Positions 28,128 through 60,758 of a stretch of 64,000 nucleotides of DNA are shown here, piece by piece. Made by a program: the position numbers and the translations under genes. The DNA lies in contig JAIBCL010000006.1 of the NCBI GenBank assembly GCA_019694165.1, positions 1-64,000 on the forward strand, given 5' to 3'. The first letter of the stretch is position 1. Each line of letters starts with the position of its first letter. This DNA is from Verrucomicrobiaceae bacterium (GTDB taxonomy: Bacteria > Verrucomicrobiota > Verrucomicrobiia > Verrucomicrobiales > Verrucomicrobiaceae). The notes beneath the pieces were generated by a model, which did no database searches, was not told the DNA's origin, and worked only from the letters and a program-made list of their open reading frames with translations.

Positions 28128-28323
28128 GGTTTCAGGGCCGCACGATGTCACATGAGCAAATCGTTTCGCGGCATGCGTGATCGAAGCTAAAACCCGGCAC
28201 TCCATCAATGGGGCTGTGGTGAAGCATTCGTCACACGGGCCATGAGACCGGGCCGCTCTGCAACGGATTCGTAACGCGCTTTGCTTTGCCCGTGAGGGGC
28301 ATTGGCAGGAGGGGTTCCACACG

Positions 28324-30737: not shown

Positions 30738-33700
30738 TCAAAGACCCGCCCCGCGCTTTTTCTTCTGTTCGTCGTCCCCTTCCGGCTCGCCTTCACCGCC
30801 GCCGTAGCCGATGACTTCGACATTGATGATGGAAGGCAGCGGCTCCTTCTGCGGCGTTGCTTGCTGTGCCTTTGTGGCGGCTTTCGCTGCTGAATCGGCG
30901 GCGGAAGAATTTGATCCAGCAGCCGATGACGCTGCCGCAAGGCCGCCGATGTTCGGCGCGCTCACTGCGGGTGCCGAAGGCGTGCCGGTGCTGGTGCCGG
31001 CGACAGAGATGTTGCTCGCGTTCAGCACCGCGGTGGCGGCGATGTTGAGATTGCCCGAGGAGCGGATGCCAGCGTCACCCGCATCGACCACGCCGACGGG
31101 TGCGATGAGATCGACGTTGCCCGGCGGAACGCCGACGACGGTGTCGAGCACGCCGATGCCGCCGCCGGTGGCGAGGCCGGAGAGGTCGGTCTGCACGTTG
31201 CCGCTTTGCGGATCGATGACCACGCGCGTCGGCGGCGCGGACTGCACCGTTTTCGATGACGCACCGGCGGCGATATTGCCGGTGGAGGACCAGATCATGA
31301 TGTCACCGCCGCGCAGCGTGAAGATTCGCGAGGTGCCGAGATCGACATTGCCATTGGCGAAAATGTTGATGCTGCCGCCGCGCTCTGTGAGAACGCCCTG
31401 CTCGAGCGATTGTCCGTCCGGACGGTCGATGCCGACGGACAGCTTTCCGCCGGGCGCGAGGATGCTGATGTCGCCACCGACTCGCGTCTTGATCTCGCGC
31501 GCCGTGAGCGAGATGTCTCCTGTGTATTTATCTTTCGAGAAGAGCGCCTTGATGGCGGCGAAGCCGCCGTCGTAGGTGGCTCCGACGTTGCTATGGTCGC
31601 GACCTGCATCACGCAAAGCAAGGAAGAGGACGGACAGAGAGCGCCGCCACTGCTCGTCCGGCGACAGAGCATTGAACTTGTCCACCGTCAACGGATCGGT
31701 CAGCTCGGATAAGTATCTCGAGCCATTCGACCCGCCGATGATCGTGCTGATGAAGGCGTCGAAGTCGAAGCCGCCCGCATTCAGTCCGCCTGCGACTCCG
31801 AGACCCGCCGCCACTCTGATGTCAGAGCCATCAAAGGGCAGATACGGATTGCGCGCATTGCCGATGCTCACGATGCCGACGCCCGTGCCGTCCGCATTGT
31901 TCGCGCCGCTGCCGAGGTCGAGATTGCGTCCGGCGAGCACCTCCAGCGTGCCGGGGCCGCTGATTTGAATGTCACCCGCTTCCACCGGCTCGTTGCTGGC
32001 CAGGCGGTTCAGTCCGGTCTGCGACTTCACGCGCAGTTGCGAATTCGGATTGTACAGGACAATGTCCCGCCCGCTGGAAACCACACTCACATCGCTGTCG
32101 CGCACGTTCTGGATGTAGAGCGAGACATCCGTGATGTCCTGGCCGGAGAAAATCGAGGCTGCCTTCGGCGAGAAAAGTGTAAGGCCGGAGAGACTGCCCG
32201 TGCCGGAGTAGAGGCGGACCGGCTCGGTGTCCTTCGCGTGCAGCGGTCCCGAAGCGTGGAGGTTTTGTTTGCTTTGGATGGTGGCGAAAGCCCCCGTGCT
32301 GGAACCAGACTCGATGAACTTCTTCTTGATGAAGGAGAGGAAATCCGTCGAGGTCGTAGATCGCTGCGATGTCGCCTTGCCCGAGATGTTGAAGTAGGCA
32401 TAAGGCGACGCCACGCCAGGAATGGATGCTGGATTCGCGTCGGAAACGTTGATGGTGGAGGAGGTCCAGTATGTGATCCTCTGGCCCGTGAGGTCGGTGC
32501 TGGTGCCGGTGGGAGCAAGACCGTTGATGGCACCGCCGGCGACGATTTGCAGAGTGCCTGTCGCCGACGGGAAGAGTGTGAGATCGCCGGTCACATTCAC
32601 ATCACCCGAGAATGCCGTGACGCGAAGCGAAGACGGCATCACGCTGTAGAGGGTGTCGAACTGGGAACCCACGCTCGTCTCGGAGAGACGCAGCCAGGGC
32701 TGGTAGTTGGCTGCCGAGTTTGAGTTCAGCAGCAGTTCCTTTTCTTCCCAAAGCCGAAGCAGAGATGTGGGTGTGGTGCTGCCATTGATCGAAGCGGACT
32801 CACGCAAGGTGACGTTGCCGCCGATCGACGAGACATTGACCGCGCTCGTCGAGCTGTGCGTCGAGAAGTAGGTTTTGTACCAGTAGCGGTTCTGCTGACC
32901 CTGCGGCAGCCAGAAGACGTTCGCCACCGGGCCGAGCAGGACATCGCCACGCGCGCTCACATTGAAGATCGTCTTTCCGGCGAACAGCGTCGTCGGCAGC
33001 CAGGTGAGTTCCGACTCGATGATCGGCGTGGCAGAACCACTCAGCCTTCCGAGTGATGGCGAGCGCGTGGAGTTCGTTGTGATGCTTCCTCCGGCTTTCA
33101 ACGTGCCAGTGCCGCGCTCGACGTAATACACTCCACCGTCGATATTTCGACCGGCATCGAGCGAGAGATCTCCGCCGCCGAGTTCGAGGATCTTGGATGC
33201 ATCGGGCGTGCCAGAGGGCGCACGCGCATTAGTTGGAGTGTGAGCATCAACGTTTTGAATGTCGCGCCCTGCGTTGAGCGTGACATCACCGCCGCCCAGC
33301 GCGCCCACGCCGCTGAAGAAATTGCTGAAATCGACCCACCAGCTCGTCGAGGCGGAAGGGTCGTTAACCTGGACGGTGATGGACTGGAAGACTCCGGAGT
33401 TCCCGTACTGGCCGGTCGCAGGATCGACGTAGCCGCGACGATAGAGCCAGTTCTCGGGGAGCTGACGTGACGAGTCGAGAATCAAATTGCCGGCATTGTC
33501 CTTCGTCAGATGCTTGATGTCCTGCTGCGCGGCGACGACCACGTTTCCACCCGCCATGCTGTATTGAGCAAAGTAGTTCTGCTGAAGAGCGCCCAGACCA
33601 GTCTGTGCTGGCGTGTTGTTTGAAGAGACGATGGGCGTGACGAAGTCGCCTGCGGTGAAAACGGTCGTCGGGCTCGCAACCTGAGTGCCCGCGGTGTAAA

Positions 33701-36700
33701 TCGTGGCGAACTGGTTGAGCAACTGCACATCACGTCCCGCCGTCACGGTGATGTCGCCGCTGCCGGTGCGGATGACCTGGAAGCGATTCGATCCCGTATT
33801 CGCATTCGTCGAGTTCGAGGGATTGATCGCGCTGCGTGTCGTGGCATTGCTGCCACCGCTCACCGTTGCCTGGCCTGCATTTTGTCCGATCAAGATGGAG
33901 CCGCTGTTTGAAGGCAGGCTCGTCATCGAGATCACATTGCGGAAGTCCGCGCCGGAGAAGTCCGCGCCGGAGGTGATGCGATAGGACCACGACTGCGCAT
34001 TCACCGGCAGCGTGCTGCTCTGCGCGAGCAAAGGAGCGGTCCAGAGCTTTTCGAGTGCATTGGTCGATGTCGCGCCGTTCACATCGAAACCGTCGCTCAA
34101 AGCGTTGTAAAACACGACATCGCCCGCTGCCTTCAGCGTAAGCACGCCGGGTGCGTTCTTCGTGCCGAAACGGAATGTGGCGAGGTTCCAGTCATTGACC
34201 ACAGGCGAGGATGCGCTCGACCCCAGCGTGATGTTGCCGGTGCGATTGATGATCTCCGCTCCGGGCATCACGACGAGAACCGACGATAGCCCTGCGTTAT
34301 TGGCGAGAATGCGGCTGGTGATGTTCGTGGCGGCAGCGCCGAAGGTGTTGCCGTTGTTTTTCACCTGCGTCTGGATGTTGTTCGCGCCGGTGTTGATGAT
34401 GACGCCGCTGCCCGTGATGTCGTAAAGCTTGTACCCTTCCACTTCGATCTTCGAGGCGCCGAGGATCGTGCCGTTGATCGGATTGATCTGAAGTTCGTTC
34501 GCTGCCGCCACCTGCGGCGCGCGAATGTGGAGCGAGCCAGTGAACTGGCCAAACTTCGCGCTGTCCGCCGTGTTCGAGGCGACCGACAGATTGATCAACG
34601 AGCCTGTCTTCACGTCCACGAGTGCAGCGGTGTTGATCACGCCATTGATCTCCGATCCAGCTTCGAGATACACCGCACCGCCTTTGCCTGAATTGCTGAA
34701 GGTCTGCGCCGATGCGTCGAGAATCGCACCGGCATTCAAGGTGACGCTGCCACTGGCCTTGAGATCAATGGTGCCGCCGGTCGTTCCTGAGGCGTCGATC
34801 GTTCCCGTCACGGTGATCGAGCCGCCATCGGTGGAGAGGATGAAGTTCTTCGTCTTTGACACGCCATCGACGGTCACATTGCCCGAATGCACGCGAAGGG
34901 TGCGCGATTCATTGAACGAGCCATTGTTCAACACGGTGGTGAGCGAAGAGAAGCTCGCGAGCGTGCCGGTGTCGAGATTGAACGAGCCTCCCTTGCCACC
35001 AGCGCCGCCCTGCCCGGAGACGGTGCCGCCAAGCACGAACGACCCCTTGGGTGCGCTCACGGTGAATGTTCCGGCATTTCCGAGGTCGGGATGCGCTGCG
35101 ACATTGATCACGCCGCCGTCTTTGATCTGCACAGAGCCATTGTCAGCCGCGAGAGTGATGCTGCCGGCGTCGGTGTATTGAATGAGGTCATAAAACGTCT
35201 GTGCCGTGCCACCAACATCGAGGCGGCCGCCGACGGAGACATTGCCAGTGAGCGCCTGCATTTTCAGGAGACCGCTCGGCAACAGCACATCCGTGTCCGC
35301 CGTGATGCTCGCGCCTTGGAAGCTCAAGCTTGATCCGAGTCCACCGGTGACTGCGGCCGTCGTGCCGCTCTTCACGAGCGACAAAGCGCCGCCTGCGGTG
35401 ATGCCGTGGCTGGCGGATTTTTCTGCGGTGATCACCGGGGTCGTGGCAGTGACCGCACCTTGTGCCACGAGCGAGCCCGTGCCCTTCGCGATGATGCCGC
35501 CCGACGCCGTGAGGAGGAGGTTCGCATACTGATCGATGTTCAGTGTGCCTTGTCCGAGACGGATCGTGTCGCCGACGAAGGCCAGCGTGCCGCTCAATTT
35601 CGCCGCTGATGCGGGTGCCTCGGCATTGGCACTGTTATCGAGCGTGATGTCGCCGGCCGTGAAGGTCACCTGCCCGCCGCCGTTGTTGAAACCACGAATC
35701 GATCCGGCATGAAGCGCGAGCTTGCCTGCCGAAGAGAACTGTCCGGTGCCATAAATGTCGAGCGTGGTGTAGCTCAGCAGCGAGAGCGACTGCGCGTTCT
35801 GCAGACCGGCAAGCGCAGAACCGGAGAGCACGAGGCCGACGGTCGGATTGAGCGCGCCTGGATTGTCGAGCTGGATGCTGATGCGCCCGCTGTTCAGAGA
35901 AATCGCGCTGCCGAGAATGGACGCACTGGCATCGAGCGAGGTGGCATAGGTCGAGTCGAGGATGATGCTCTGACCGCTCACTGTTGCTCCCGCGCCGATG
36001 GTCATCTTCGGCACGATTTGCGTCGGGAAGTCAGCAGGCACCGTGACGGAGTTGCGGAAGATCTGCGCATTCGGATCGCTGCTCACGCGCAGCATCGTGC
36101 CATTGCCGCTGCCAACGACGGCGGAGTCGCCAAACACCAGCAGGTCTGCCGCCCCGCCCATGGAACCTGACTGGAGGATTTGCGCGCCATCAGTCAGCGT
36201 GAGCGTCTTCGTCGCCGCGAGAATGATCTCCGGACCAGTGAGTGGCGCGCCTGCATTGTCCACAGTGATGTTGTTCGCTGTCACTTTCACCGTCGTGCTG
36301 TCGCGTCCGAAGGCGCGATAGCCACCGATCAGAAGACTCTCGGCGCCCCAGCGACTCACAAGTGCCGAGTCGAGGACCAGCTTGCCCGTTTGTCCGCTTG
36401 CGCCCGCGCCGCCGATGACGATATCGATCGGTGTGCTGATGTCGATCTGGCCGCCGCGACCTCCCGCCTTACTCATGCCGTACACGTCGCCTTGTAGTGA
36501 CATCGCTTGAGTGGAGCTGAAGAGCAGATAGCCGCCGTCGATCGGCAGTCGCGGCACTGGTGAGTCCAGCTTGATCGCGCTGTCTCTCAGGAAGGTGTTT
36601 GCGTAGTAGCGTTCATACGTCGCGCGCTGGCTCACCACGGAGTAGGAGGCGACTTCAAAACGCGAGTAGAGCGAGGAAACGTCGCGACTGCTGTTCAAGT

Positions 36701-39700
36701 CGTTGAAGCGATAGCCGTTTACGAAGTAAGAGCCATCGGGATTGAGGAAGGTGCCAATCGGATTCCCCGACTTCGGGGTCACGAGCACCGCGCCCGGCAT
36801 GAGTGCGTATCGAGCTGGCAGGAGCGTGTAAACACCAGCCGCGAGAGCATTGCTGCCACTAAGATAGACGCGATCACCAGCCTGAATTGTACTGTTCACG
36901 TAGCCAGGATCGCCGCTGAAGGCCGAGGACGTGCTGCTGAACGGCGCGTAAGGCGAGACGTTCGAGTCGTAGCCCGGTATCACCGCGAAGCTGCCACTGG
37001 AGGCGAGGATGTCCGTGCTGCCGCCATTGCCCTTCACCCACGAATATGCGAGCAAGTCACCGCCTCCCGAGATGTCCACGAGAGATCCAGCCTCGGTGGT
37101 CACACTTGCTCCGGAAAGCCTGATCGATTTCCCAGAGATGCCGCCAGCCGTGATGTTCAGGCCGGTCGGATCGATCCACGATGCGCCGCTGTCCACCACG
37201 AGACCGTAAGGTATGAGCGATGCCTGCCCCGTCACGGGATCAACAGCGGAGACTGACGTGATGCTGCCAGCGGAAAGCGTGAGCTGCTGCGTGACGGGCA
37301 CGGCAGAATTGGTCAAAAGATTAACGGGAGCCGTGCCGGTGCCGTCCCAGCCGATATTGATGTTCCCGATCGGTGCGCGCAGCACGCCGCCTTGATTGAT
37401 GATGGAGCCGTAAATGTTCAGCGTGCCACCAGCGGAGAGCGGCAGGCTCCTTTGCACGCCCGACGAAGCGATGGTGACCGAGCCAGGCTGCGTTACATCG
37501 TTCACTTTGTAATCGTAGGCGACGATGGTGAAGGTGGATGCCGTCGTCGGATAAATCTGTCCGGCGGTGAGAGTCAGATTGCCGGCGATGTTGAAGACGC
37601 CGTTGCCGCGGATGTCGTTCTTCGCGTAGAGATTCGCCGTGCCGATGTTTTGCAGCGAGAGCGTGCCGATGTCGAGATTGTCGGAGGTGATGTTCAGCAC
37701 TCCTGTCCCGTAGGTCGGAAGGAAATAGCTCTTATCCACGGCACCGCCCGCCACTGAGAAGAATGGCGTCTGCACTTCCTCCGGCAGCATCGGCGTGGTG
37801 AAGGGTCTGCCGATGGCGACGTAGGGCGCGGCGAGATTCACGGTGGAGTCTGCCTGAATGATGCCGCCGAGGCCCACCTTCAGAGAACCGCGCGCCGAGA
37901 TATTCACGGGACCGCGAAACTCAACGTTCCCATCGAGGGTGAGTGAATCGAAACCGCCGCTGAGGAAGGAATTCGCTCCGAAGTATCCGACCGCCGTGAT
38001 CGCATTGCCATTGGCATCCATGATCGCTTGTCCGATCGGTGACTTGTCGGATTTGAAGGTCGGGAAGCTCAAGGACGAAGCGTCCTGCGCCACCACAAGA
38101 TTGATCGCTTTGTCATCGCGATCGCCGAATCGCCCGGACGCGAGCGACAACGTGCCGCCCGTGGCCGTCGGTCCGCCAGCATCGCCCTTTAGCGTCGCGC
38201 GCGTGAAGAGAAACTCTCCGCCCTTCATCGCGATGGAGCCGCCGTTGCTGTCGATCTGCGTTGGCACACCGAGAGACGCATAGAGTGGTGAGGTGATGCC
38301 GCTGGTAAGCGGAACGATGCGATTGTTCGCCATCGGATCGGCCAGCATCGCATCGAGATTCAGATACGACGGATGCACGTCGAGCACGGCGCTCGTGCCG
38401 GACACGTCGAGCAACGCACCGGCATCGGCCACGATGTTGCCAGAGATCTTGATGCTGCCGCCCGGTAGCACGTAGCCTGTGTTTCGACCGAACGGATCAA
38501 GCAGATTCACCGTCGTGCCCGCCGTGGACAGAGAGCTGCCGGGGCCGAGATAAACCGTGGGCGACACGATCACTTCGCCTCGCACAGGGAACTTGTCCGA
38601 TGCGCTGATGGTGATGCTTCCACCCGGAGCCGTGACGGATCCGAGAATGGAAACCGTCTGTCCTTCAAAGCTGACCGAAGCGAGCGGATCAGTTTTGATG
38701 CGCGCTCCAGCACCCATCACGATGTCGCTGCGCACTTTGAGAATCGGAGCTGCCGTTGCTTCCGTCTGCACGCCAGGGAGGGTTTGGAAGCTCAGGCTCA
38801 CGGGCGAGCGATAACCGACGGGTTTCAAAATCGTGGTGACGCCGAAGGTGTCGCTGTCAGCGGGATTCGGAATCGCCAGCAAACTCTGAGCCACCGGCTC
38901 GATCACCGTGCCCGGTGCGATCGCGACGGCAGGCGCATACTGCTCAGGCGCGATCGGGTCCGTCGGATTCAAATCCGCGCCGATGCCGATAAGCGTGAAT
39001 TTGGTGAAGCCACCCGTGCTGAAGAAGCCTGGGTGCAACAACAGCGTGTTTGGATAAGTGGCCACTCCGCCGACTTGAATCAATTGCGCCTGCAAGGTGA
39101 GCGAACCGCCTTGTGCACCCGAATAAGCGCGAAGCGTGCTGCCGAGATTGAAGGTGCCACCGAGCACGGACGGATGATTGATGTCCTTGCCCGCCTTGAT
39201 GCTGATGCTGCCGCCATTGCCATACGTGAGCTTGCCGAGCTGATTCATGAGCACACCGCCTGATGCATCGATCACACTTCCAGCCGCGAGGTCAGCATTG
39301 AACGCCTCAATTGCGACTGAGCCGCCCGCCAGCGTGCTGCGAGTCTGCACATGATCGGCATCCACTCGCACACTTACGCCGAGCGGTTGGGTGAAGGGAG
39401 CTGGAGCATTGAGGCGATCGTCAATCAAGAGACCTGCCACATCGATGCTGCTGCCCGCGCCGAGCGTGAACGTGCCACGCCCCGCAACCGGATCTTCGGA
39501 CGTGAGCGTCTGGAGATAAGGCGAGACGTTGTAAGCCTTCAGCGTTATCGAGCCTGCCGGTGCTTTGAGCGAGCCGAGCACGGCGATGTTCTTGCCTGAA
39601 AGCGTGATCGATCCAGCGGGCGGGGCCGCCAGCTCGACATTCGCCGGCACGACGACATCGCCATCGCTGTTCTCGACGGTGAGCGAGCCAAAGCCGTTCT

Positions 39701-42119: not shown

Positions 42120-42141
42120 GGGCAGTCGGTCTTTGGAAAGG

Positions 42142-43053
42142 CTATTTGGCCTCGGCGCTCTTCGGCAGGATCTGCGAGAGGGCGAGTTCGTTGACGGCGA
42201 CGGGATTGGCCTTCAAAAGCGCGGCGAGATGTGCCTGCTGGTTTTCGCGCGTCTTGTCGGCGCGCATCTGGCGGACGAGCTGCGGGCGGATCTGCACGAG
42301 CGTGGGCGTGTGCGCTTCGCGGATGTCGGTGACCTTGATGATGTGCCAGCCGTCGTCGAGACGGATGGGATCGGAGACCAAATTGACGGCGAGCTTCGGA
42401 AGCTGCGCGCGGATTTCCGGCTGTATCTGCGCGTCGGCGAGCCAGCCGATTTCTCCGCCGTTCTTCACGCTGGCGGCGTCTTCGCTGTGCGCAGCGGCGA
42501 GCGCGGCAAAGTCAGCGTTCGGCTTCTTCAACGCTTCACGGACGACGGCGAGCTTGAGCTTGGCATCGGAACGCGCGGTGGCGTCGGCGGTATTGAGTTC
42601 GGCGATGTAGATTTGCGAGAGACGATAAGTCTTCGGCACGAGCAGCGAGGGCTTCGCGGCTTCGTAGGCGGCTTTCAACTCGTCTTCGCCCGGATAGTTG
42701 TCCGGCGGTTGCGAGATGGACTGCAGATAGGTTTCGGTGATGGCGCTTTCGCGCACGCGCTGGAGCTGGAGGGCGATGTCGGGCTTTTCATCCCACTTCT
42801 TTTCGAGCGCCTCTTTCAAAACGAGCCGCTGCACGAGCAGGGCGCGCACCATCGTGTTGAGCTGCGCGGAGTCCTTGGCGATCGACTGCTTCTCGGCATC
42901 ACCAAGAGGCGCGAGCGCGGCGCGGATGTCTTCGATCTTGATCTCCGTGTCGCCGATGCGGCCGACGATGTTCGCTTTGTCCGCGTGTTCCTCCGCAGTG
43001 GCGGGGATGCAGAGCAAGAGGACTGTGATGATGCAATGAGATGAGGAGTTCAT
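42142..43053 (-). CDS. PpiC/SurA-type parvulin peptidyl-prolyl isomerase
   Basis: The 303-residue protein has a short signal peptide (CIITVLLLCIPATAE). A SurA-N-like helical region follows (LVQRLVLKEALEKKWDEKPDI), then a parvulin domain around residues 140-245 (YRLSQIYIAELN, FAALAAAHSEDAASVKNGGEIGWL, VSDPIRLDDGWHIIKV). Periplasmic parvulins assist folding of outer-membrane and secreted proteins. Its position immediately before the giant exoprotein (22 bases) suggests it keeps that protein or the porin export-competent. It overlaps the coiled-coil gene by ATGA. Confidence 0.85.
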   Translation of the reverse strand: MNSSSHCIITVLLLCIPATAEEHADKANIVGRIGDTEIKIEDIRAALAPLGDAEKQSIAKDSAQLNTMVRALLVQRLVLKEALEKKWDEKPDIALQLQRVRESAITETYLQSISQPPDNYPGEDELKAAYEAAKPSLLVPKTYRLSQIYIAELNTADATARSDAKLKLAVVREALKKPNADFAALAAAHSEDAASVKNGGEIGWLADAQIQPEIRAQLPKLAVNLVSDPIRLDDGWHIIKVTDIREAHTPTLVQIRPQLVRQMRADKTRENQQAHLAALLKANPVAVNELALSQILPKSAEAK

Positions 43054-43853
43054 GTTTTCGCCTTGGTTTTCGCTGCGCTCGGAGCCTGCGCGGCAGGAGC
43101 CTGCACTTTTGCGGCATCCTCGGGTTTGGTTGGCGGAGCAGGCTCATTGGCTTTGTCGGCCTTGTTCTTCTTGTCCTCGGGCAGCGTGTTGTTGTAATCA
43201 GCGGGCCGGATTTTCTGCGCGACGAGCTTCTCCTCGTAGTTCTGCATGAGGTTCTGCAGCTTCACGCGGGTGATGCCGGTGAACGGCTCGCGCGCGGTGA
43301 GCGCAGTGCCGAGGCCGAACCCTTTGTAGCGGTCGAGGATTTCGTTGCCGATCTTGAACATCTCCGCGTTCTTCGCCTCGTTGTCGGCGACGCGGCGCTC
43401 GAGCACGACGACCTTGCCGGCGAGCACACTGCGCTCGGCCTCCTTCTTCTGCGCGATGGCGGCGGCCTTGCCGTAGCCGTCCTTCCACTTCGTGAGCGTC
43501 TGTTTCGTGCGGGCGAGATCCTGCTCGGTGTTCGCGACTTTCGAAGTCAGCTCGTTGATCGACTTGTCGGTCGCCGCCTTGTCTTCAGCGGTCTTCTTGC
43601 GCAGGGCGTCGAGCTGCTTCGTCAGGTCGGCGATCTTCTTCTCGTTCTCCGTCTTCGTCGTTTCGAGTTCGGCCTGCAGCGTCGCCTTCTCGGCTTCGAC
43701 GGTTTGGAGCTGCACCATCGTGGTGCGCAAAGTTTCGCGCATTTTCTTCAGCGCGGCCTCCATGGCGTTAGCCTGCTGCTGTTGTTGCGCATTCGCTGAT
43801 GTGACGATGCACAGCGCGACAGCGAGAGCGGTGGTTTTCAAAAATCGGTTCAT
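43050..43853 (-). CDS. Periplasmic coiled-coil protein
   Basis: The 267-residue product has a signal peptide ending at TSANA (about residue 22), a poly-Gln start, and a long coiled coil (residues 30-160, heptads such as LQTVEAEKATLQAELETTK and ADLTKQLDALRKKTAED). A short globular part (AREPFTGITRVKLQNLMQNY) and a Pro/Ala/Lys tail follow. It could be a rod-like periplasmic spacer or chaperone. It lies between the porin and the parvulin in the TPS/Ton operon and overlaps the parvulin by ATGA. Confidence 0.7.
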   Translation of the reverse strand: MNRFLKTTALAVALCIVTSANAQQQQQANAMEAALKKMRETLRTTMVQLQTVEAEKATLQAELETTKTENEKKIADLTKQLDALRKKTAEDKAATDKSINELTSKVANTEQDLARTKQTLTKWKDGYGKAAAIAQKKEAERSVLAGKVVVLERRVADNEAKNAEMFKIGNEILDRYKGFGLGTALTAREPFTGITRVKLQNLMQNYEEKLVAQKIRPADYNNTLPEDKKNKADKANEPAPPTKPEDAAKVQAPAAQAPSAAKTKAKT

Positions 43854-43865
43854 GAGGAGTCGCGA

Positions 43866-45881
43866 TCAAAACTTGGCTGACAGGTCGAACATGAGGATGT
43901 CCGCGCTGAGGGGCGGGCCGGCGATTTCATCGGCGCTCATCCAGCGCACGCCGATCTTCACGCGTGGCGAGAGCGCGACGGCGGCACCGATGGTGATGCC
44001 CTTGTGATTCGTGCCGCCGAGGCCGAAGTCGGAGTCGCTGAACGCATCGACGACGGCGTCTGACTCGACGTAGCGATAGCCGATGCTCGCATTCCAGTCC
44101 CAACGCTTCTCAAACTTGCCTTTGCCGACCTGAAGCTGCACGGACCACGCGGTGTCGCCGCCTTCGTATTTGCCGATACCGTTGACGTTGCCCTGCTCGA
44201 TGGCTCCGCGGTTGTTCACGGCGATCGCATCGACCGCTGCGGCGTCGAACTCGAGGTTCTTGGCGTATTCGCCGAGCAGCGAGATCTGATACGGCTCGAA
44301 GAAGTTGAAGTCGATGCGGCCGCTGTAGCTGGCGATCTTGAACGGTGTGGCGAGGCCGAAGTATTGGAACTGGTTCTTCGTGCCGTAGTCGTTGAGCGCG
44401 CTCGGGATGATGTTGCGCAGCGCCATGTAGGTGTTGCCTTTCTGCGCGAAGGACGGGCGTGTGTTGTCCGTGTTGCCCGCGTCATCGGCCGTGAGCGGCG
44501 TGTAAGGATCCGACAGCTTGCCTTCGACATCTTTGAAGTCGTAGTAAGACGCCGCGAGCTTGGCGACGACCTTGTCCTTGATGTTGAACTCGAAGCCTCC
44601 CTGCGCGGCGTAGAGCCATTTGTCGGTGCTCTCAAACTTGTCCGGCTGGTTCGAGGAGAAGTTGAAGTCGGTGTTGAAGATGGGGAACAGGCCGCCGGTG
44701 ATGAACGGCGTGATGCCGCGCAACACTTCGTATTTCGTGGTGAGAGCCACGCCGTCGAAGCCGAGATCCTCGTCCCACATCATCTCGCTCGTGGTGAAGA
44801 ACGGATTGTCGAAACGGCCCGCCATGAAGGCGAGGTTCTTGTTCGGCTTGCCGCCGAGTTCGTATTTGATGAACGCGCGGTCGAGCCAGATGGCATACTT
44901 GCTGAAGTTGCCGCCCTGGCCCTGGTTCGCGAGGCCGAAGCTCTGATTCGCGGAGACCGGCGTGCTGCTGTCGCCGGTGGCGAGGCGGATGCCAGCCGTA
45001 AAGCCATCACCCAGATTCACATCCATGCCGAGGCGCGCGCGCAAACGCAGACGCTGACGGTCTTCGTCCACGTTGAGCTGCGGGGAGAACACGGTGCCGG
45101 CGACGTCGAAGGGCTTGCCGGTGTTGATGGCGTTGAAGTTCGGGAACGAGCCGGTGTTGTCGTTGCCATCCGGGAACATGTTCATCTCGTAGCGCACGCG
45201 GATGTCGCCGAACCAACGGATGCGGTTCACCCAATCCGGGAATGCAGCAGCACCGGCCCACTTTTCATCGCGCGCCTGGGCGAGCACTTCGCTTTTGATC
45301 TCGTCGCGGATCTGCGCCTTCACGGACTCGGGCACATAGGCCACGCGCACGGTGCCGTCGCCGTTCGGTGCGATAGCGTCGCCTGCTTCGGCTTCTGCGC
45401 GCGCCTTGGCGGCATCAGCGATGGCTTGTTTGATCAACTCCTCCGCATCCTGATGCGTGAGCACGCCGCGTTCGACGAGACGGTTGATCAAATTGATCGT
45501 GACGTTCTGCGATGGCGTCTGCGCCTGCTGCGTCATCGTCGGCTCCGGCGTTGGAAGCGGGAGCTTGTCGATGGCGGGCAGTTCCGCGCCCGTCGCTGGA
45601 TCAGTGACCGCGAACAGGGCGGGCGTGGCGAGGTGCTCCTTGTCATCGAAGAGATCCACCGTGGCCGGCAGCGGCTCTCCCGCATCCTTCTTCGCGGATG
45701 GCGGTGCATCGGCAGATGCAGCCGCCGGCTTTGGTGTGGGCGATGCAGCCGTAGGCGCGGCAGGTTTTTCCTTCGCGGCTTCCGCGGCGCGCGAGGACAC
45801 GAGGCCGCTGCCGCACAGCGCAAAAATCAGCGCGAAGGCGAGACATGACGGAAGACGAAGTCGTGGATCAATGAGGAGCAT
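43866..45881 (-). CDS. Outer-membrane beta-barrel porin (putative porin family)
   Basis: The 671-residue protein has an N-terminal signal (to about residue 33). An Ala/Pro/Lys linker and a helical segment with NLINRLVERGVLTHQDAEELIKQAI (about 125-150) come next. From about residue 215 it is a beta barrel (IRWFGDIRVRYEMNMFPDG onward) with strictly alternating strands and a C-terminal Phe (MFDLSAKF), the BAM recognition signature. The layout fits the putative porin family (Porin_5-like). The N-terminal helix may be periplasmic and contact TonB or peptidoglycan. It lies 18 bases after the TonB gene. Confidence 0.85.
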   Translation of the reverse strand: MLLIDPRLRLPSCLAFALIFALCGSGLVSSRAAEAAKEKPAAPTAASPTPKPAAASADAPPSAKKDAGEPLPATVDLFDDKEHLATPALFAVTDPATGAELPAIDKLPLPTPEPTMTQQAQTPSQNVTINLINRLVERGVLTHQDAEELIKQAIADAAKARAEAEAGDAIAPNGDGTVRVAYVPESVKAQIRDEIKSEVLAQARDEKWAGAAAFPDWVNRIRWFGDIRVRYEMNMFPDGNDNTGSFPNFNAINTGKPFDVAGTVFSPQLNVDEDRQRLRLRARLGMDVNLGDGFTAGIRLATGDSSTPVSANQSFGLANQGQGGNFSKYAIWLDRAFIKYELGGKPNKNLAFMAGRFDNPFFTTSEMMWDEDLGFDGVALTTKYEVLRGITPFITGGLFPIFNTDFNFSSNQPDKFESTDKWLYAAQGGFEFNIKDKVVAKLAASYYDFKDVEGKLSDPYTPLTADDAGNTDNTRPSFAQKGNTYMALRNIIPSALNDYGTKNQFQYFGLATPFKIASYSGRIDFNFFEPYQISLLGEYAKNLEFDAAAVDAIAVNNRGAIEQGNVNGIGKYEGGDTAWSVQLQVGKGKFEKRWDWNASIGYRYVESDAVVDAFSDSDFGLGGTNHKGITIGAAVALSPRVKIGVRWMSADEIAGPPLSADILMFDLSAKF

Positions 45882-45899
45882 GTGAGGAGTCGTATCAGA

Positions 45900-46613
45900 T
45901 CAGTTCGGCCGCTGTCCGCTGATGCGCAGGACGATGGGCATGGGCATGTTCGAGGGCGGTGCTTCGCGGAGCTGGAGGCCGGTGAGCACCTCGCCGTTCA
46001 GCGCGGCGTTCACGTCGGCCTCGCCGCCGCCGCCGGAGATCGAGGCGCGCGTGATGCGGCCCGTGGCGTCCACCCAAATGCGCACCGTGCGCTGACCGGT
46101 GGCGAACTTCGTTTTGCCATGGCGGCGCACGGCATCGGCGATGCTGCTCTGCACCTGGCCGGCATACCAGCCAAAGGCACTGCCCTTCTTGCGGCCGGTG
46201 CCATTGCCACTGCCGCCAACCATGCCATTGCCGCTGCCGCTCAGTCCAAAACCATCGCCAGCGCCGTCGCCCTTGATCGCAGTGCCGAGCGCGGGCGGCG
46301 GATCGTCCTTTGCGGGCTCAGGCTTCTGCTCGGGCTCCTCGACCTTCGGCTGCTCGATCATTTCCTCCTTCTTCTGTTCCTCGGGCTCCGGCGGTTTGGG
46401 CTTCGGCGGTGGAGGTGGTGGAGGCGGCTTCGGCAAAGGCGGAAGCGGCGCGATGAAGATCATCTTCTCAGGCTTCGGCGGTGGTGGTGCTTCGTCTTTC
46501 GGCTTCACCTGCACAAAGGCGAAGGCCACTCCGCCTCCTAGCATGGTGATGCAGGCCGGCAGCAACCAGCGGTGGCGCTGCCAGATGGATTCTTCTTCGT
46601 CGTCCCAGTTCAT
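45900..46613 (-). CDS. TonB-like energy transducer
   Basis: The 237-residue protein has a short cytoplasmic N-terminus and one membrane helix (WLLPACITMLGGGVAFAFVQV, about 16-36). A long Pro/Lys/Glu periplasmic linker (about 40-105) is followed by a Gly-rich hinge and a C-terminal TonB-like domain (GKTKFATGQRTVRIWVDATGRITRA). TonB transmits ExbBD-harnessed proton-motive force to outer-membrane proteins. No TonB-dependent receptor is encoded here, leaving the porin, the TpsB barrel or remote receptors as possible partners. It sits between exbD and the porin. Confidence 0.8.
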   Translation of the reverse strand: MNWDDEEESIWQRHRWLLPACITMLGGGVAFAFVQVKPKDEAPPPPKPEKMIFIAPLPPLPKPPPPPPPPKPKPPEPEEQKKEEMIEQPKVEEPEQKPEPAKDDPPPALGTAIKGDGAGDGFGLSGSGNGMVGGSGNGTGRKKGSAFGWYAGQVQSSIADAVRRHGKTKFATGQRTVRIWVDATGRITRASISGGGGEADVNAALNGEVLTGLQLREAPPSNMPMPIVLRISGQRPN

Positions 46614-46650
46614 AAGCGTGTGCGTGTGGGTTTGCGGTTGCGATTCGTGA

Positions 46651-47055
46651 TCATTTGTCCCGCGCCTTCGTGGCGAGGCCGATCTGCGTGATGCTGAGTC
46701 CGCCGAGGACGTTCAGCACATCCATGATGGTCTGGTATTGCGTGCCGCTGTCGCCGCGCACGACGACAGGCAGCTCGGGCATGCTCGACTTCAGTGCGGC
46801 GAGCTTTGACTCCAGCTCGGCGAGCGTGACGGGAATGGTGTTGAGGAAGATTTTCCCCTCGTTGTTGATCGTGATGGCCTGCGTCTTCGGCGCATCCATC
46901 TTCTGCGAGGCGGGCGCACCGCTCTTCGGCAGGTTCACCTTGATGCCCTGCACGCCGGCCGTCGTCATGATGATGAAGATCAGCAGGAGGACCAGATAGA
47001 GGTCCACCATCGGCGTGACGTTGATGTCGTCGTAGGACTTGGAGTCGGCCTGCAT
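46651..47055 (-). CDS. exbD: ExbD/TolR-family biopolymer transport protein
   Basis: The 134-residue protein has the usual ExbD layout: a short N-terminus, one membrane helix with a membrane-embedded Asp (INVTPMVDLYLVLLLIFIIMT, Asp18) and a periplasmic domain (TLAELESKLAALKSSMPELPVVVRGD). With the ExbB subunit it forms the proton-conducting stator complex. It begins six bases after the ExbB fusion stop and precedes tonB by 37 bases. Confidence 0.9.
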   Translation of the reverse strand: MQADSKSYDDINVTPMVDLYLVLLLIFIIMTTAGVQGIKVNLPKSGAPASQKMDAPKTQAITINNEGKIFLNTIPVTLAELESKLAALKSSMPELPVVVRGDSGTQYQTIMDVLNVLGGLSITQIGLATKARDK

Positions 47056-47061
47056 GACGCG

Positions 47062-48978
47062 TCAGTCTTTCACCTCCGGATACCGCTCGGCCATGCGAGC
47101 GAGGAACTCGTCGATGAACGTCTCCATGTCGTTCACCGCCTGCTTGATGCGCGAGCTGAGATAGCTGTAGGCAAACAGCGCCGGAATGGCGACAGCCAGA
47201 CCTGCGACAGTGGCGAGCAGTGCGCCCGCGATGCCCGGCGCGATGGAGTTCACCTCGACCTCGCCCGTCTTCGCGATGACGGCAAAGGTGATCATCACGC
47301 CGATCACCGTGCCGAGCAGTCCGAGATACGGACCACCGGCGATGCCGATGGTGAGGAACACGAGCTTGCTGTTGAGCTTCTCAACTTCGCGCACGAGACC
47401 GGTGTGCAGCGTGGCCTTGATCGCGGCGATGGAGCGGCTGGAGAGTCCCTTCACGGTCTTCGGCGCGCCTTTGAGCGACACCTGACTGACGCTCTGCAAT
47501 CGATTGCGGATTTCATCCGAGCCGATGTGGTAGATGTGATACAGCGGCGAGTGCCGCATCTGCCGGTGCGCCTTCGGACTCGCGGTGCCGCCGAGCGTTT
47601 TGACGGTTTCCTCGTCGGTGTGGTCGATCGCCGTGATGTCCGCCGTCACCTTCTGCCAGCGCGCGAGGAACACCTTCGTCGCCTTGCTGATCTTGTTCAG
47701 ATAAAGCAGCTTTCCGAGCGCAACGAACCCGCCGATGAGTGCGAGGATGGTGCAGGCGTAGATGACGATCCAGCCGTCGAGCGTGAGGCTCTTCGAGATG
47801 TCCTTGATGAGCGACAGATGCTTCGCCAGCTCGTCCTCATGCGCGGCGCCGCCCGAGGCTTCATCCGCGCCGACGATCATGAGCTTCTGCGCATCGGAAC
47901 TCGATCCCTGGTTCACCGTGGCAAACCGCAGCCAGCCGACACTACGGGCCACGCGGGAGATTTGCAGCTCGTCGAGTTCGCCCACGAATGCCGTCGCATT
48001 CGCCGGTCCGCCTTCGCCATCTTTTCCAATCGTCGCCGCACCTTTGAACGCGGGCAGCGCGGCGTTGAGCGTGCCGTATTGCTTGCCGTCGAGATAAACG
48101 GTGAGTGTCGCATCGCTCGCGACGACGGCGAGATGACGCCACGCATTCGCCGCGAGTGCTTCGCCGGTCGATGAACGCGCCTTGTTCACCTCGACAAAGG
48201 GAACGCCGTTGTCGAGACCGATCACAAAACCGCTGCCGCCTTCGCGACGCGAGAAGATCGTCGCGTTCGCAGCGAGCGCCGTCGGCTTGATCCATGCGGA
48301 CCACGTCAGCGCACCGCCAGCAGCCCACTCAAGCGACGGCGCGGCAGGAACCGTGATCGCTGCCTGTCCGAGCAAACGCAGACCGCCTGACACAAGCGAG
48401 CCCGCAGCTGGCGGCGGCACGCCTTCGATCTTCAATCCGCTCGCCGACGAGTCGGTCGAGGCATTCACCGCATCGGCAAAATGGAAGACTGCCGTGGTGT
48501 CGGCATCATACGTTTCCTTCGCGGGCGATGCGGGCGTCGCATCGATCGTGTTGCCGTAATAGAGCCACACTGTCGTCGCGGCCGACGGTTTGATCTCCGG
48601 CACCTGCACCCACACGTAGGCTTCATTGAGCAGCGTGTCCCACTTCTCGATGTGATGCTTCAGCACCGTCTTGCCGTCCTCGGCCACGAAGCGCAGATCG
48701 CTGCCGTCTTCCTTCGCGGAGAAGAACCCGAAGTTCCCATCATGCAGCCGCACGAGCACGGCTGACTTGCCGATCGCGTCGGTGATCGTCACGCCTTTGT
48801 CGCTCGTGTCGATCGTGAGCTTCTTGCGCGTCGGCCACTTCGCATCCCACCACGGCGCGTGTTCCTTTCCTTTCTCGGCCGCTTCGCCGTGCAAGGAAGA
48901 CGCGCTCATCAGCGCGCTGAGCGCGAGGCCGGTGAGCAACGCTCGGGAAAGAAGTATCTGGACGTTTTTCAGGATCAT
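47062..48978 (-). CDS. ExbB/TolQ proton channel fused to DUF2341 and LamG-like domains
   Basis: The 638-residue protein has a signal peptide (residues 1-34). A DUF2341-like region follows (about 43-135, WWDAKWPTRKKLTIDT ... TVWLYYGN), then a LamG/concanavalin-like domain (about 150-345, AAGGALTWSAWIKPTALA, WRHLAVVASDATLTVYLDGKQYG). Only then comes the ExbB part: one helix (WIVIYACTILALIGGFVALG, about 405-425) and two pore helices (LVFLTIGIAGGPYLGLLGT and GIAGALLATVAGLAVAIPALF). The sugar-binding-like head would be periplasmic. DUF2341-ExbB fusions exist in other bacteria. It is coupled to exbD and follows the tpsB gene. Confidence 0.85.
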   Translation of the reverse strand: MILKNVQILLSRALLTGLALSALMSASSLHGEAAEKGKEHAPWWDAKWPTRKKLTIDTSDKGVTITDAIGKSAVLVRLHDGNFGFFSAKEDGSDLRFVAEDGKTVLKHHIEKWDTLLNEAYVWVQVPEIKPSAATTVWLYYGNTIDATPASPAKETYDADTTAVFHFADAVNASTDSSASGLKIEGVPPPAAGSLVSGGLRLLGQAAITVPAAPSLEWAAGGALTWSAWIKPTALAANATIFSRREGGSGFVIGLDNGVPFVEVNKARSSTGEALAANAWRHLAVVASDATLTVYLDGKQYGTLNAALPAFKGAATIGKDGEGGPANATAFVGELDELQISRVARSVGWLRFATVNQGSSSDAQKLMIVGADEASGGAAHEDELAKHLSLIKDISKSLTLDGWIVIYACTILALIGGFVALGKLLYLNKISKATKVFLARWQKVTADITAIDHTDEETVKTLGGTASPKAHRQMRHSPLYHIYHIGSDEIRNRLQSVSQVSLKGAPKTVKGLSSRSIAAIKATLHTGLVREVEKLNSKLVFLTIGIAGGPYLGLLGTVIGVMITFAVIAKTGEVEVNSIAPGIAGALLATVAGLAVAIPALFAYSYLSSRIKQAVNDMETFIDEFLARMAERYPEVKD

Positions 48979-48996
48979 GGAGTCAGGTCAGAGGAG

Positions 48997-50682
48997 TCAA
49001 AATTCAGCCCACGCGCGGAAGGAGATGAAGGCGTCGTCGGCCAGCGTGTTGCCCGCGCTGATCAGCGGGAAGCTCAGGTCGATGGAGCCATTGAGATGAC
49101 CGAAGAGCTTCATGCGGCTGCCCACGCCCCAGCTCGCCAGATCGTGCTGCTCCACTTCATCCGGCAGCGGATCATTGATGCCCAGCCGCCCGCCTTCGAG
49201 GAAGGCATACACGCGCCATTCATGCGGCGAGCTTTCTTCATCAGCGGCGGCGTCATCGCTCTTCGCCTTCTTTTTGCGGAACAACTCGAAGATGTCGGGA
49301 CTGCGCAGCTCGACGGTGCCGAAGATCGCATTGTCACCGAGGGTTTCGGATTCGAGGTAGCCGCGCGCTGTGGCGAGACCGCCGCCGGCAAATTGCTCGC
49401 TGTTGATCAGCGGATCGCTGCTGATCTGTCCCTGCGCCTTCACATAAGCCTGGAACCCGCCGGGCAGGTCGTGCGTGTGCGAGGCATCGCCGCGCAGATA
49501 AAGATAACTGCCGCTCGAGTTGTAACGCTTGTTGTCAAACTCCACCGGCTCGCTGCCCATGCCGCGCACGTGCCAGTTCGCCGAGAGGTTCAGCTCCGTG
49601 AAGCTGTGCTTCCCGCTCCACGTCGCTCCATATGCCAGCGTGAACGGCCAGTACTCGATCGGCGTTGAGAACGCCTGGCCATCGACGACGACATCTTCGT
49701 CGAAGTGTTTGTAATCGACGCCAAAGCTCAGCGAGTGGAAGAACTTGTTCCTTCCCGGCAGCGTGATCATCGCGCGAATGCCCGCCACCTCACCGCGACC
49801 CGCCACCGCCGCACCGCCGAGCGTGGACACATTGCTGTCCTGCTTCGTGCCCTGCAAAATGAAGCTCAACCGCTGCCACGCCGGCGCGCGGAACACGTAG
49901 TAGCCCGAGTAGATCAGCGCATCCTCCGTGCGCTCCGGCGCGACCTGCATCGAAAAGCCCGCCGAGTGGCCGAGCTGCCAGAGATTGTTGTAGCTGATCG
50001 AGCCATTGAGCCGCAGCGGCGTCGTGTTCGGGCTGTAGCGGTTGTTGACCTCGATGCTCCCGTGCAGCGGGAACTTGTCTTTGACGTTCAGATCGATGTC
50101 CACCGTCCCCGGCTCGATCCCCGGCACCAGCGACGGCGTCACACGACGGTCGCCGAGCTGATTGAGCGCAATGATGTCGCGCGTCACGTCATTGAAGTTC
50201 GGCACCACGCCCGGCGCCAGCGACGGCGCGCGACGCTTGATTTCACTCGGCAAAAACCAACGCGCACCGTTCACACGAAGACGGCCCACCTTGTTTTCGA
50301 TGACGTTCATCACGATTACCCCGCGCCTCGGCCGCTGCTGCGGCACTTCGACAGTCACCGTCTGAAAACCCTTGTCCCGATACGCCTTTTCCAAAGCCGC
50401 ACGCGCCCCCTCCACATCCTCCGTCGTCCGCATCGGCCCCAAAAACGGATACACCGCCCGCTCCACCTCGATCGGAGCCAACACCTTCGACCCCGTCACC
50501 CGATACTCGCGGATGTACATCGTCGGCTGTGGCACGGCCGACGTTTCTCCGCTCTGCTCTTTGCTCTTCGGCGGCTCACTTGAAGACTCCTCCGCAGCCG
50601 ACGCAATCCACGTCACTCCTGCCAAGAGCACGAAGACCCATCGAAGCAAAAGCAGAGGTCGAAGTGCAGGAGTGAGTCGCAT
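48997..50682 (-). CDS. Two-partner secretion transporter (TpsB; ShlB/FhaC/HecB family)
   Basis: The 561-residue product has a signal peptide (to about residue 29). Two POTRA-like segments follow: about 55-120 (MYIREYRVTGSKVLAPIEVERAV ... GFQTVTVEVPQ) and about 125-200 (GRLRVNGARWFLPSEIKRRAP). A 16-strand-type barrel ends in Phe (FISFRAWAEF), with GGGLATARGYLESE as the conserved lid motif. It is Omp85-superfamily and exports the giant exoprotein encoded at the far end of the same operon. It is the first gene of the operon, with its promoter in the 250-base gap downstream of ardC. Confidence 0.9.
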   Translation of the reverse strand: MRLTPALRPLLLLRWVFVLLAGVTWIASAAEESSSEPPKSKEQSGETSAVPQPTMYIREYRVTGSKVLAPIEVERAVYPFLGPMRTTEDVEGARAALEKAYRDKGFQTVTVEVPQQRPRRGVIVMNVIENKVGRLRVNGARWFLPSEIKRRAPSLAPGVVPNFNDVTRDIIALNQLGDRRVTPSLVPGIEPGTVDIDLNVKDKFPLHGSIEVNNRYSPNTTPLRLNGSISYNNLWQLGHSAGFSMQVAPERTEDALIYSGYYVFRAPAWQRLSFILQGTKQDSNVSTLGGAAVAGRGEVAGIRAMITLPGRNKFFHSLSFGVDYKHFDEDVVVDGQAFSTPIEYWPFTLAYGATWSGKHSFTELNLSANWHVRGMGSEPVEFDNKRYNSSGSYLYLRGDASHTHDLPGGFQAYVKAQGQISSDPLINSEQFAGGGLATARGYLESETLGDNAIFGTVELRSPDIFELFRKKKAKSDDAAADEESSPHEWRVYAFLEGGRLGINDPLPDEVEQHDLASWGVGSRMKLFGHLNGSIDLSFPLISAGNTLADDAFISFRAWAEF

Positions 50683-50900: not shown

Positions 50901-50928
50901 AAAAACCTCCCGCGCAAAACGGGAGGTT
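50901..50928 (-). terminator. Rho-independent terminator of ardC
   Basis: Arms AACCTCCCG (50904-50912) and CGGGAGGTT (50920-50928) form a perfect 9-pair stem with a 7-base loop, and the minus-strand transcript continues in a run of T. It lies seven bases after the ardC stop and separates the mobile region from the TPS operon. Confidence 0.85.
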
Positions 50929-50934: not shown

Positions 50935-51924
50935 TCAAGGCTTTGCTTCATCAATGGTCGGCGGCTTGATGCCGAGCACGCAATCGGCGGCTTTCGCGGC
51001 TTGGCTCGCGGCGATGACGATCCATCGCTTGTGGTCGGGTTCGCGGAGAACATCAAGCCAGCTCTGAATGTAGGCGGCGGCGTTCAGGTGATCGTCCTGC
51101 ACGATGTCGGCTTCGAGGCCGAGGTAGGCGGCTCCCATCTCGGCGACCAGCTCTTCTTGCGAGTACACTTTGCCGCCGAAGCCATCGTGCTCGACGAGCG
51201 TCTTGCGGTTGAGCCGCGACTCGTGGCCGGTGGCGTGGACCAGCTCGTGGAAGAGCGTGAGGTGGTAGTCCTCAATGCTCGCGAACGAGTTCTCGGGAGG
51301 CACGAACACGGTGTCGGTGGACGGCTTGTAGGCCGCCATATCGCGCTGCCCCTGCATGATGAGGGGCGGCTGCGGCATGTTCGCGACGATTTGCTCGGCG
51401 ACCTCGACGCTCTTCGATTTGGGCATCGGCGCTGCCGAGGCGATTGGTGGGAACTCGATGCCCTCGGTCTGGGCGGCGTTGAAGACGATGTATTCCTTGA
51501 GGTAGAACCTCGACTTCCGCCTGCCGTTGGCGGCCTGGCTGTCGGTGTCGTCTTGCTTCGGGGTGAACTGGCCCCAGTTGACGACCGTGCTTCCCCGCTC
51601 GCCCTTGCGGACGCTGCCGCCGAGCGCTTTCACCTGCTGGAACGTGAGCCAGAACGGCGAGGCGAACTTGCGCAGACCGAGCAGGAGCAGGTTCACGCCC
51701 CGGTATGGCTTGCCCGTGTGGAAGTTGCGCGGCTTCCCCACCTCGCGGCTCCACGGGCGTCGCCACGGTACGACGCCTTCTTCGAGATGGCGGAGGATGG
51801 TGTCGGTGACGAATTGATAGGGATCTCTGCGGTCCGCGCGGTCGTTCGGCGGCGCGGCATTTTCGGTGACGGGCGCGACGACATCAGTCGCCGCTTTCTT
51901 CTTGGGTTTGGATTTCGTTGGCAT
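50935..51924 (-). CDS. ardC: ArdC-like antirestriction protein
   Basis: The 329-residue protein starts at ATG 51924; the frame extends to 52002 but that part precedes the conserved start. The N-terminal DUF1738/ArdC-N single-strand-DNA-binding domain spans about residues 35-155 (ILRHLEEGVVPWRRPW, NFHTGKPYRGVNLLLL, FWLTFQQVKALGGSVRKGE). The C-terminal zincin-type peptidase domain carries HELVH at 226-230 and a downstream Glu in QEELVAEMGAAYL. ArdC proteins protect incoming plasmid DNA from restriction. This places the left boundary of the mobile region here. It has its own terminator. Confidence 0.85.
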   Translation of the reverse strand: MPTKSKPKKKAATDVVAPVTENAAPPNDRADRRDPYQFVTDTILRHLEEGVVPWRRPWSREVGKPRNFHTGKPYRGVNLLLLGLRKFASPFWLTFQQVKALGGSVRKGERGSTVVNWGQFTPKQDDTDSQAANGRRKSRFYLKEYIVFNAAQTEGIEFPPIASAAPMPKSKSVEVAEQIVANMPQPPLIMQGQRDMAAYKPSTDTVFVPPENSFASIEDYHLTLFHELVHATGHESRLNRKTLVEHDGFGGKVYSQEELVAEMGAAYLGLEADIVQDDHLNAAAYIQSWLDVLREPDHKRWIVIAASQAAKAADCVLGIKPPTIDEAKP

Positions 51925-51995
51925 GACGAATTCTGTGTTTGGTTTTTGATGAGCGAGTGAAGCCAGCCTCGTTTGCGAGACGGGCTTCATGCCGT

Positions 51996-55573: not shown

Positions 55574-55617
55574 TAATCTGTCCTGTCAAATCTTTAAAAA
55601 TTATTTCAACTCGCAGA

Positions 55618-56598: not shown

Positions 56599-56632
56599 AA
56601 ATTCATTGTTGCCGCAGACTGACCAACTTATT

Positions 56633-56641
56633 TGCTATACT
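56633..56641 (+). promoter_or_regulatory. Candidate extended -10 promoter
   Basis: TGCTATACT is an extended -10 (TGnTATAnT) inside a locally AT-rich stretch, about 160 bases upstream of the VirD4-like gene. Confidence 0.45.
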
Positions 56642-56798
56642 TGGACGAGTCAGTTCTTCCCCGAAGCCTCGCGCTTCGGCATCGGCGGCAGCTTCTCTCC
56701 TCCCCGGCTCCTCAACTCAGGTTTGCCGGTCGTTTTCGTTGCCGCGCTGATCGCACGGGGCGCGGCAATGAGAATTGGCGAGGGCAGCCGCCTCCGGT

Positions 56799-58070: not shown

Positions 58071-58074
58071 CCGC

Positions 58075-58989: not shown

Positions 58990-58994
58990 CACCG

Positions 58995-59053: not shown

Positions 59054-59084
59054 GTTCCAACTCCAAACCCAGTTCCTTCACAAC

Positions 59085-60137: not shown

Positions 60138-60145
60138 TCCACGCC

Positions 60146-60750: not shown

Positions 60751-60758
60751 CCAACACC

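Follow-up and report, generated by a model that had tools for sequence, protein, structure and literature searches.

A two-partner secretion operon of Verrucomicrobiota that joins a giant DUF3739-type exoprotein to a putative proton-driven motor

The DNA analysed here (the window, 64,000 nucleotides of contig JAIBCL010000006.1) comes from a Verrucomicrobiota bacterium related to Brevifollis. It contains an operon of eight genes, all on the minus strand and running from 50682 to 30738, in which the transporter TpsB and the giant exoprotein TpsA of a two-partner secretion (TPS) pair are encoded together with an ExbB–ExbD–TonB-type motor, a porin, a coiled-coil protein and a parvulin. This type of ExbB motor and a TpsA with a DUF3739 domain near its C-terminus almost always go together in Verrucomicrobiota, and plasmid records, the material covered for Proteobacteria, give the same picture there. 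Judged from the sequences and the analyses described below, the motor probably serves the export, retention or release of TpsA, and not a TonB-dependent receptor (TBDT) or porin-driven uptake. Type V secretion serves as the textbook case of protein export that draws on no outside energy supply, and the DUF3739 class of TpsA is almost always tied to a motor of its own. Should that motor act on the exoprotein, one branch of the type V pathway would be energised; should it act on the porin, a Ton-driven channel would exist that does not belong to the TBDT family.

Pairing of the motor with DUF3739-type TpsA

The genes follow one another, 5′ to 3′, in the order TpsB, ExbB fusion, ExbD, TonB-like transducer, porin, coiled-coil protein, parvulin and TpsA. 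A check of the open reading frames (ORFs) gave intergenic gaps of 6–37 bases and one 4-base overlap: 18 nt for TpsB–ExbB, 6 nt for ExbB–ExbD, 37 nt for ExbD–TonB, 18 nt for TonB–porin, 12 nt for porin–coiled coil, the 4-nt overlap for coiled coil–parvulin, and 22 nt for parvulin–TpsA. Protein families were assigned with Pfam and NCBIfam hidden Markov models (HMMs). A preliminary description of this DNA had given the same ORFs, order, strand and spacing, all of which stood on rechecking of the coordinates, and its identification of TpsB, the ExbB fusion, ExbD, the porin, the parvulin and TpsA is backed by HMM matches.

The best 80 relatives of TpsA all belong to Verrucomicrobiota according to their record labels, a few of them depositor labels such as Akkermansia muciniphila. 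The 56 of these 80 loci with 9 kb or more of sequence ahead of TpsA, on its upstream side, were used to count cassettes, a complete cassette being defined as TpsB–ExbB fusion–ExbD–TonB–porin–coiled coil; the parvulin is present in, and absent from, about half of them. The cassette is complete at 50 of the 56 loci, entirely absent at 6 and partial at none, so that the gene order which the preliminary description proposed to look for around DUF3739-type TpsA in other genomes recurs at most of them. Twenty loci retrieved from relatives, a set that partly overlaps the 80 through the species drawn on, also mostly have the complete cassette with its order kept. In three genomes (G006, G038 and G044) TpsA stands apart from the operon, and each retains a TpsA-less cassette elsewhere; in two others (G003 and G013) TpsB has been relocated to the opposite end of TpsA, on its convergent side. 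Five cassettes (L067, L070, L074, L112 and L038) have a second ExbD, and one (L072) a second TonB. An apparent exchange of TonB and porin at another locus (L045) was traced to an over-extended ORF.

The same pairing is seen at the level of whole genomes. Among 57 near relatives, DUF3739 is present in 23 genomes, and 22 of these have DUF2341, a domain of the ExbB fusion, as well; the exception (G028) holds a fragment alone. In an even sample of 241 genomes across the phylum, a profile of the ExbB fusion (threshold E ≤ 1e-60) detected it in seven genomes of five families; DUF3739 occurs in the same seven, and neither occurs alone. The TPS domain (PF05860) is found in 36 of the 241, of which the 29 outside these seven lack both DUF3739 and the ExbB fusion. 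The tie is therefore to the DUF3739 class of TpsA and not to TPS generally; these 29 genomes rule out a Ton motor needed by TPS proteins in general. A gene assembly peculiar to one strain, which the preliminary description had named as the outcome that would undo its proposal, is ruled out by the 50 of 56 loci together with the co-occurrence in the phylum: the architecture is conserved across families and phyla.

Plasmids extend the pairing to Proteobacteria. The ExbB fusion is present in 11 of 72,556 plasmid records, with 92–94% of the protein aligned; 10 of the 11 also match DUF3739, and the eleventh, from Aquabacterium, has a giant TpsA directly adjoining. Five DUF3739 records (four plasmids, one of them sequenced twice) are without the fusion on the plasmid itself, plasmid sequence being what the search covered. 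In Klebsiella quasipneumoniae pKqq_SB98_1 the order is VreA-like protein, sigma factor, anti-sigma factor, TpsA, TpsB, ExbB fusion, ExbD, TonB, porin, hypothetical protein, YbjN, PpiC, hypothetical protein and LysR; Methylosinus pMSC49a resembles it, and both join the Verrucomicrobial cassette with the gene order of the PUMA3 locus described below. PUMA3-like TPS/Ton loci were seen on IncFIB-type Klebsiella plasmids (L037, L122 and L123), one of which is typed as conjugative, and the K. quasipneumoniae plasmid has two DUF3739 TpsA genes. A Methylomagnum ishizawai plasmid (L040) carries an ExbB fusion–ExbD–TonB–coiled coil block without the porin, its TpsA lying about 15 kb away with alkaline phosphatase genes between TpsA and the motor block.

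The gene set itself has been described before, in Pseudomonas aeruginosa, where it is known as the pdt/PUMA3 locus. In strain PAO1 it consists of pdtA, pdtB, exbB2, exbD2, tonB4, PA0696 (a putative porin), PA0697, PA0698 (YbjN) and PA0699 (PpiC); the set belongs to the VreI regulon, induced through PhoB on phosphate starvation, and PA0697 has a structural likeness to channel-forming colicins (PMC2729926, PMC4971064, PMC7035377). PUMA3 homologues were noted in 2009 to accompany TPS, ExbBD and PA0696 in several Proteobacteria (PMC2729926). The Ton genes of this locus, which is counted with the DUF3739 class of TpsA, have been uncharacterised since 2009, and the system is quoted in the literature as “still uncharacterized”. 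The near-obligate pairing with one TpsA class, the spread in Verrucomicrobiota and the ExbB fusion appear to be undescribed in the open-licence literature.

Components of the operon and the candidate clients of the motor

The ExbB/TolQ-type stator fusion (638 residues, 47062–48978) matches DUF2341 (residues 91–177), LamG (Laminin_G_3, residues 206–346) and the MotA_ExbB channel domain (residues 514–619); DUF2341 and LamG are expected to lie in the periplasm. In full-text, open-licence papers, what was found on DUF2341 with ExbB was a general remark on N-terminal appendages alone (PMC12505986). The ExbD/TolR-type stator (134 residues, 46651–47055) is matched by the ExbD HMM. By HMM score, both stator parts are closer to TolQ and TolR than to ExbB and ExbD proper. 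Thr557 and Thr590 of the fusion, which we take to be the functional threonines of TolQ/ExbB, are invariant in 21 of 21 alignment rows, and Asp18 of ExbD, within its transmembrane segment, is conserved in all 66. The proton-coupling residues are thus intact in the aligned stator genes, as would be expected of a working proton motor.

The third motor gene (237 residues, 45900–46613) gave no Pfam or NCBIfam match. Its sequence features predict one transmembrane segment, a proline-rich and glycine-rich linker and a C-terminal domain, the last 123 residues of which (45903–46271) were modelled as α-β-β-α-β. The nearest solved structures found with Foldseek are the C-terminal domains of TolA, HasB and TonB (probability 0.80–1.00, with E-values of only 0.009–0.09), a profile search of Protein Data Bank sequences gave HasB and TolA for this stretch (E 0.2–0.9), and orthologues are annotated as ‘energy transducer TonB’. 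The label TonB/TolA-type transducer comes from the predicted fold, these weak nearest structures and the proline-rich linker. The earlier naming of the gene as TonB thus holds for its type, by fold, linker and orthologue annotation, while the fold matches are weak and the nearest is TolA.

TpsB (561 residues, 48997–50682) has a POTRA_2 domain (PF08479, residues 57–129) and a ShlB/FhaC barrel (PF03865, residues 192–462), and TpsA (3,793 residues, 30738–42119) has a TPS secretion domain (PF05860 and TIGR01901, residues 134–402, 40914–41720), the combination at one locus by which two-partner secretion is recognised. With a single cysteine, TpsA consists of a helical N-terminal extension, the TPS domain, β-rich repeats and a C-terminal DUF3739 domain (HMM match, residues 3604–3714, 30978–31310); members of the class range from about 3,300 to 4,500 residues. 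The conserved, helical-looking extension (residues ~44–124, 41750–41990) comes after the signal peptide and ahead of the TPS domain, outside the Pfam TPS match.

In the arrangement that these parts suggest, the operon would encode one trans-envelope machine, made up of the TPS pair, its own proton-driven TonB/TolA-type motor, the porin and periplasmic helpers. TpsA would be exported through TpsB, kept export-competent in the periplasm by the parvulin and the coiled-coil protein, and export would pause before the C-terminal part of TpsA has left the periplasm, as happens with FhaB and CdiA. At that stage the transducer would act on the outer-membrane assembly, whether on the paused TpsA tail, on TpsB or on the porin stalk, and proton-motive force would be used to finish export, to hold TpsA under tension or to release it. 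FhaB offers one precedent: about 1,200 of its residues stay in the periplasm when its export halts, and processing towards release begins once the extreme C-terminus has been removed (PMC11077949). Another is Myxococcus, where export of PopC needs a Ton system with the TBDT Oar (PMC6434023). Set beside these precedents, the parts of the operon best support the general reading that the motor serves the assembly of TpsB, TpsA and porin. Of the interpretation in the preliminary description, the conserved, class-specific architecture and the lack of a TBDT client are supported, and a role of proton-motive force in driving, gating or timing export is a proposal.

A candidate point of contact lies at the end of TpsA, where DUF3739 is followed by a variable linker, the motif PS[ILV][IF][TS]VEV[LI]G[YF]G and a variable charged tail. 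The window has the form IINVEVIGYG (residues 3764–3773, 30801–30830). The motif is present in 40 of 41 TpsA C-termini from two phyla, including Proteobacteria, the forty-first being a clear variant (SIMVDVVGFG), and elsewhere in TpsA it was met in 1 of 991 windows; as the pattern was written after viewing the data, its conservation alone is usable and no p-value is given. TonB boxes in the TBDTs of relatives, for example LPPVTVTA and LPTITVTA, look similar to it. A position weight matrix built from the segment before the plug in 30 TBDTs of related genomes scored the TpsA tail at 4.5, the porin at 1.9 and TpsB at −0.2, the tail being the highest of the segments compared. A TonB box in the segment of TpsB ahead of POTRA was rejected, the alignment having no conserved motif there. 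As a tentative guess at the contact, the transducer might engage the conserved tail strand PS-I-I-T-V-E-V-L-G-Y-G. Type Vb secretion powered by protons, in which the motor would grip the paused tail through the PSIITVEVLGYG strand and complete, hold or retract TpsA at the surface, is likewise speculative and on balance doubtful.

The Porin_5 outer-membrane porin (671 residues, 43866–45881; HMM E 1e-205) offers a second possible client. Its model (mean pLDDT 70.8, from 27 sequences) is a 16-stranded barrel with N-terminal helices and no plug, and the porin is therefore predicted to be neither a TBDT nor a classical TonB client. Residues 26–124 were modelled as a disordered, proline-rich stretch, after which residues 123–166 (45384–45515) are conserved in the alignment, with the pattern PSQNVTINLINRLVxRGVLT..DAxELIxQAE; within the alignment the segment PSQNVTINLINRLV is well conserved. 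If the porin were the client, the alternative named in the preliminary description, TpsA would capture a ligand at the surface, such as a phosphorus source, secretion would be energy-free, and the motor would act on the periplasmic N-terminus of the porin, either opening the channel or powering uptake. Such a role, the chief rival to TpsA as client, is rather unlikely, though several observations speak for it. The conserved N-terminal segment stands behind a disordered linker; within the cassette the genes for ExbB, ExbD, TonB, the porin and the coiled-coil protein form the most closely kept block, and the greater mobility of TpsB and TpsA favours the porin somewhat, with both ahead of the block in Aquabacterium and TpsB at the other end of TpsA in G003 and G013; phosphate starvation turns on the homologous P. 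aeruginosa locus (PMC4971064); and alkaline phosphatases lie near the Methylomagnum locus. Weighing on the other side are the predicted plugless barrel, which is nearest to OmpM and general porins and not to TBDTs, and the motor block of Methylomagnum, which has the coiled-coil protein and no porin. We also know of no TonB-driven 16-stranded porin, which counts against the porin as client.

The periplasmic coiled-coil protein (267 residues, 43050–43853) has a conserved C-terminal motif, RYExFGLGxALAAREPFTGxTRVKLENLVQDY, and is by position the counterpart of PA0697; sequence comparison with known folds returned generic coiled coils alone. The parvulin-type peptidyl-prolyl isomerase (303 residues, 42142–43053) was assigned by the Rotamase HMM.

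The likeness of the stators to TolQ and TolR, and of the transducer fold to TolA, could also be read as a sign of a Tol–Pal-like function, in which motor and stalked porin would reinforce, or exert a pull on, the outer membrane surrounding the secretion site and any effect on TpsA would be indirect. The nearest solved fold to the porin found with Foldseek, OmpM1, is consistent with this, being an outer-membrane tether (PMC10628300). The operon, however, encodes no TolB, Pal or SLH domain, and a general envelope function would not be expected to pair so strictly with a single TpsA class, so that an explanation of this kind is improbable.

The preliminary description had noted that no TBDT is encoded, and the operon indeed contains none; nor was any TBDT plug (PF07715) or barrel (PF00593) detected in the host assembly, which comprises 7.8 Mb in 66 contigs and is 96% complete. 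Other cassette-bearing genomes have 2–12 TBDT barrels, which would suit a motor serving receptors encoded elsewhere in the genome, but with no match to either model in the host assembly and a motor that tracks DUF3739 and not TBDTs, that possibility was rejected as exceedingly unlikely.

Several points weigh against TpsA as the client of the motor. TPS translocation is described as free of an energy source and has been reconstituted in liposomes without external energy (PMC5422565), and an insertion mutant of the PAO1 tonB homologue PA0695 was fully virulent, under VreI induction, in zebrafish embryos, a readout of virulence and not of PdtA export (PMC2729926). The porin, too, has a strongly conserved periplasmic segment. 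The TonB-box score of the TpsA tail is no better than that of composition shuffles (median p 0.17), and with the score inside the shuffle range a TonB contact at the tail is treated here as a hypothesis. The genome co-occurrence counts share ancestry and are not phylogenetically independent. Finally, the host assembly, only 96% complete, holds eight ExbD-family genes; with no TBDT alongside them, stators that lack a TBDT occur beyond this operon as well and seem common in the organism.

Surroundings and regulation of the operon

A terminator-like stem-loop of ten pairs with a T run (50904–50928, minus strand) lies between an ardC-like gene and tpsB, which points to tpsB as the first gene of a separate transcription unit. 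The genes upstream of tpsB are the ardC-like gene, a small protein without a Pfam match and an integrase, and no VreA–VreI–VreR, sigma or anti-sigma genes were found upstream of it within the window. Pho-box-like repeats were not found upstream of 50 tpsB genes with a crude pattern, which may not be the Verrucomicrobial box. These results bear on a reading by mere co-regulation, according to which the genes would share a phosphate-starvation regulon and no mechanism. The PAO1 set, all of it under VreI and PhoB (PMC4971064, PMC7035377), speaks for such a regulon. The lack of sigma and anti-sigma genes upstream of tpsB in the window and of matches to the crude Pho-box-like pattern, the cassette order kept in Verrucomicrobiota, and genomes that hold DUF3739 and the ExbB fusion all or nothing argue against it, and co-regulation as the whole explanation is very improbable.

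The flank at 50935–64000 contains the ArdC-like anti-restriction gene, the small protein, the tyrosine integrase (53192–54154), a HerA/TrwB-like ATPase (56775–58070) and a DnaG-like primase (59052–60137), and is probably an integrative element adjoining the operon. On the other side, a plus-strand ORF of 698 residues without a Pfam match (28324–30420) adjoins TpsA and is neighboured by an OmpR-type response regulator (27348–28322).

Comparison with known systems

The closest counterpart is pdt/PUMA3, which, by the published gene list for PAO1, shares the set of TpsA, TpsB, ExbB, ExbD, TonB, porin, coiled-coil protein and PpiC. The window differs from it in having neither adjacent VreAIR genes nor YbjN, and in placing TpsA last in the operon, whereas TpsA is transcribed separately in pdt/PUMA3. 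ExbB relatives with N-terminal appendages (DUF3450 or DUF2341) are known, the DUF2341 fusions being noted as of unknown function (PMC12505986); the fusion of the window likewise has an extra N-terminal domain, of the DUF2341–LamG type, and is tied to a giant TpsA.

OmpM1 of Veillonella is a trimeric porin whose periplasmic stalk ties the outer membrane to the wall (PMC10628300). The window porin has the nearest barrel fold and periplasmic N-terminal helices in common with it, whereas the OmpM-type tether carries an SLH domain on its stalk, for which the window porin gave no Pfam match.

Two systems combine TonB energy with TPS or with protein export. HxuA/HxuB/HxuC of Haemophilus influenzae is, like the operon described here, a TPS operon linked to TonB energy, but that operon includes a TonB-dependent haem receptor, HxuC, for which TonB powers import (PMC5422565), whereas the window has no receptor. 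In Oar–PopC of Myxococcus xanthus a Ton system helps a protein outward across the outer membrane (PMC6434023), by way of a 22-stranded TBDT with a plug and TonB box, a kind of receptor that the operon lacks.

With the type Vb systems FhaB/FhaC, CdiA/CdiB, HMW and ShlA/ShlB the operon shares a TPS substrate and a POTRA/ShlB transporter encoded at one locus. No occurrence of ExbB was found in a review of TPS (PMC5422565). To the core TPS pair, which has none of these parts (PMC5422565), the window adds an ExbB–ExbD–TonB motor, a porin and a coiled-coil protein.

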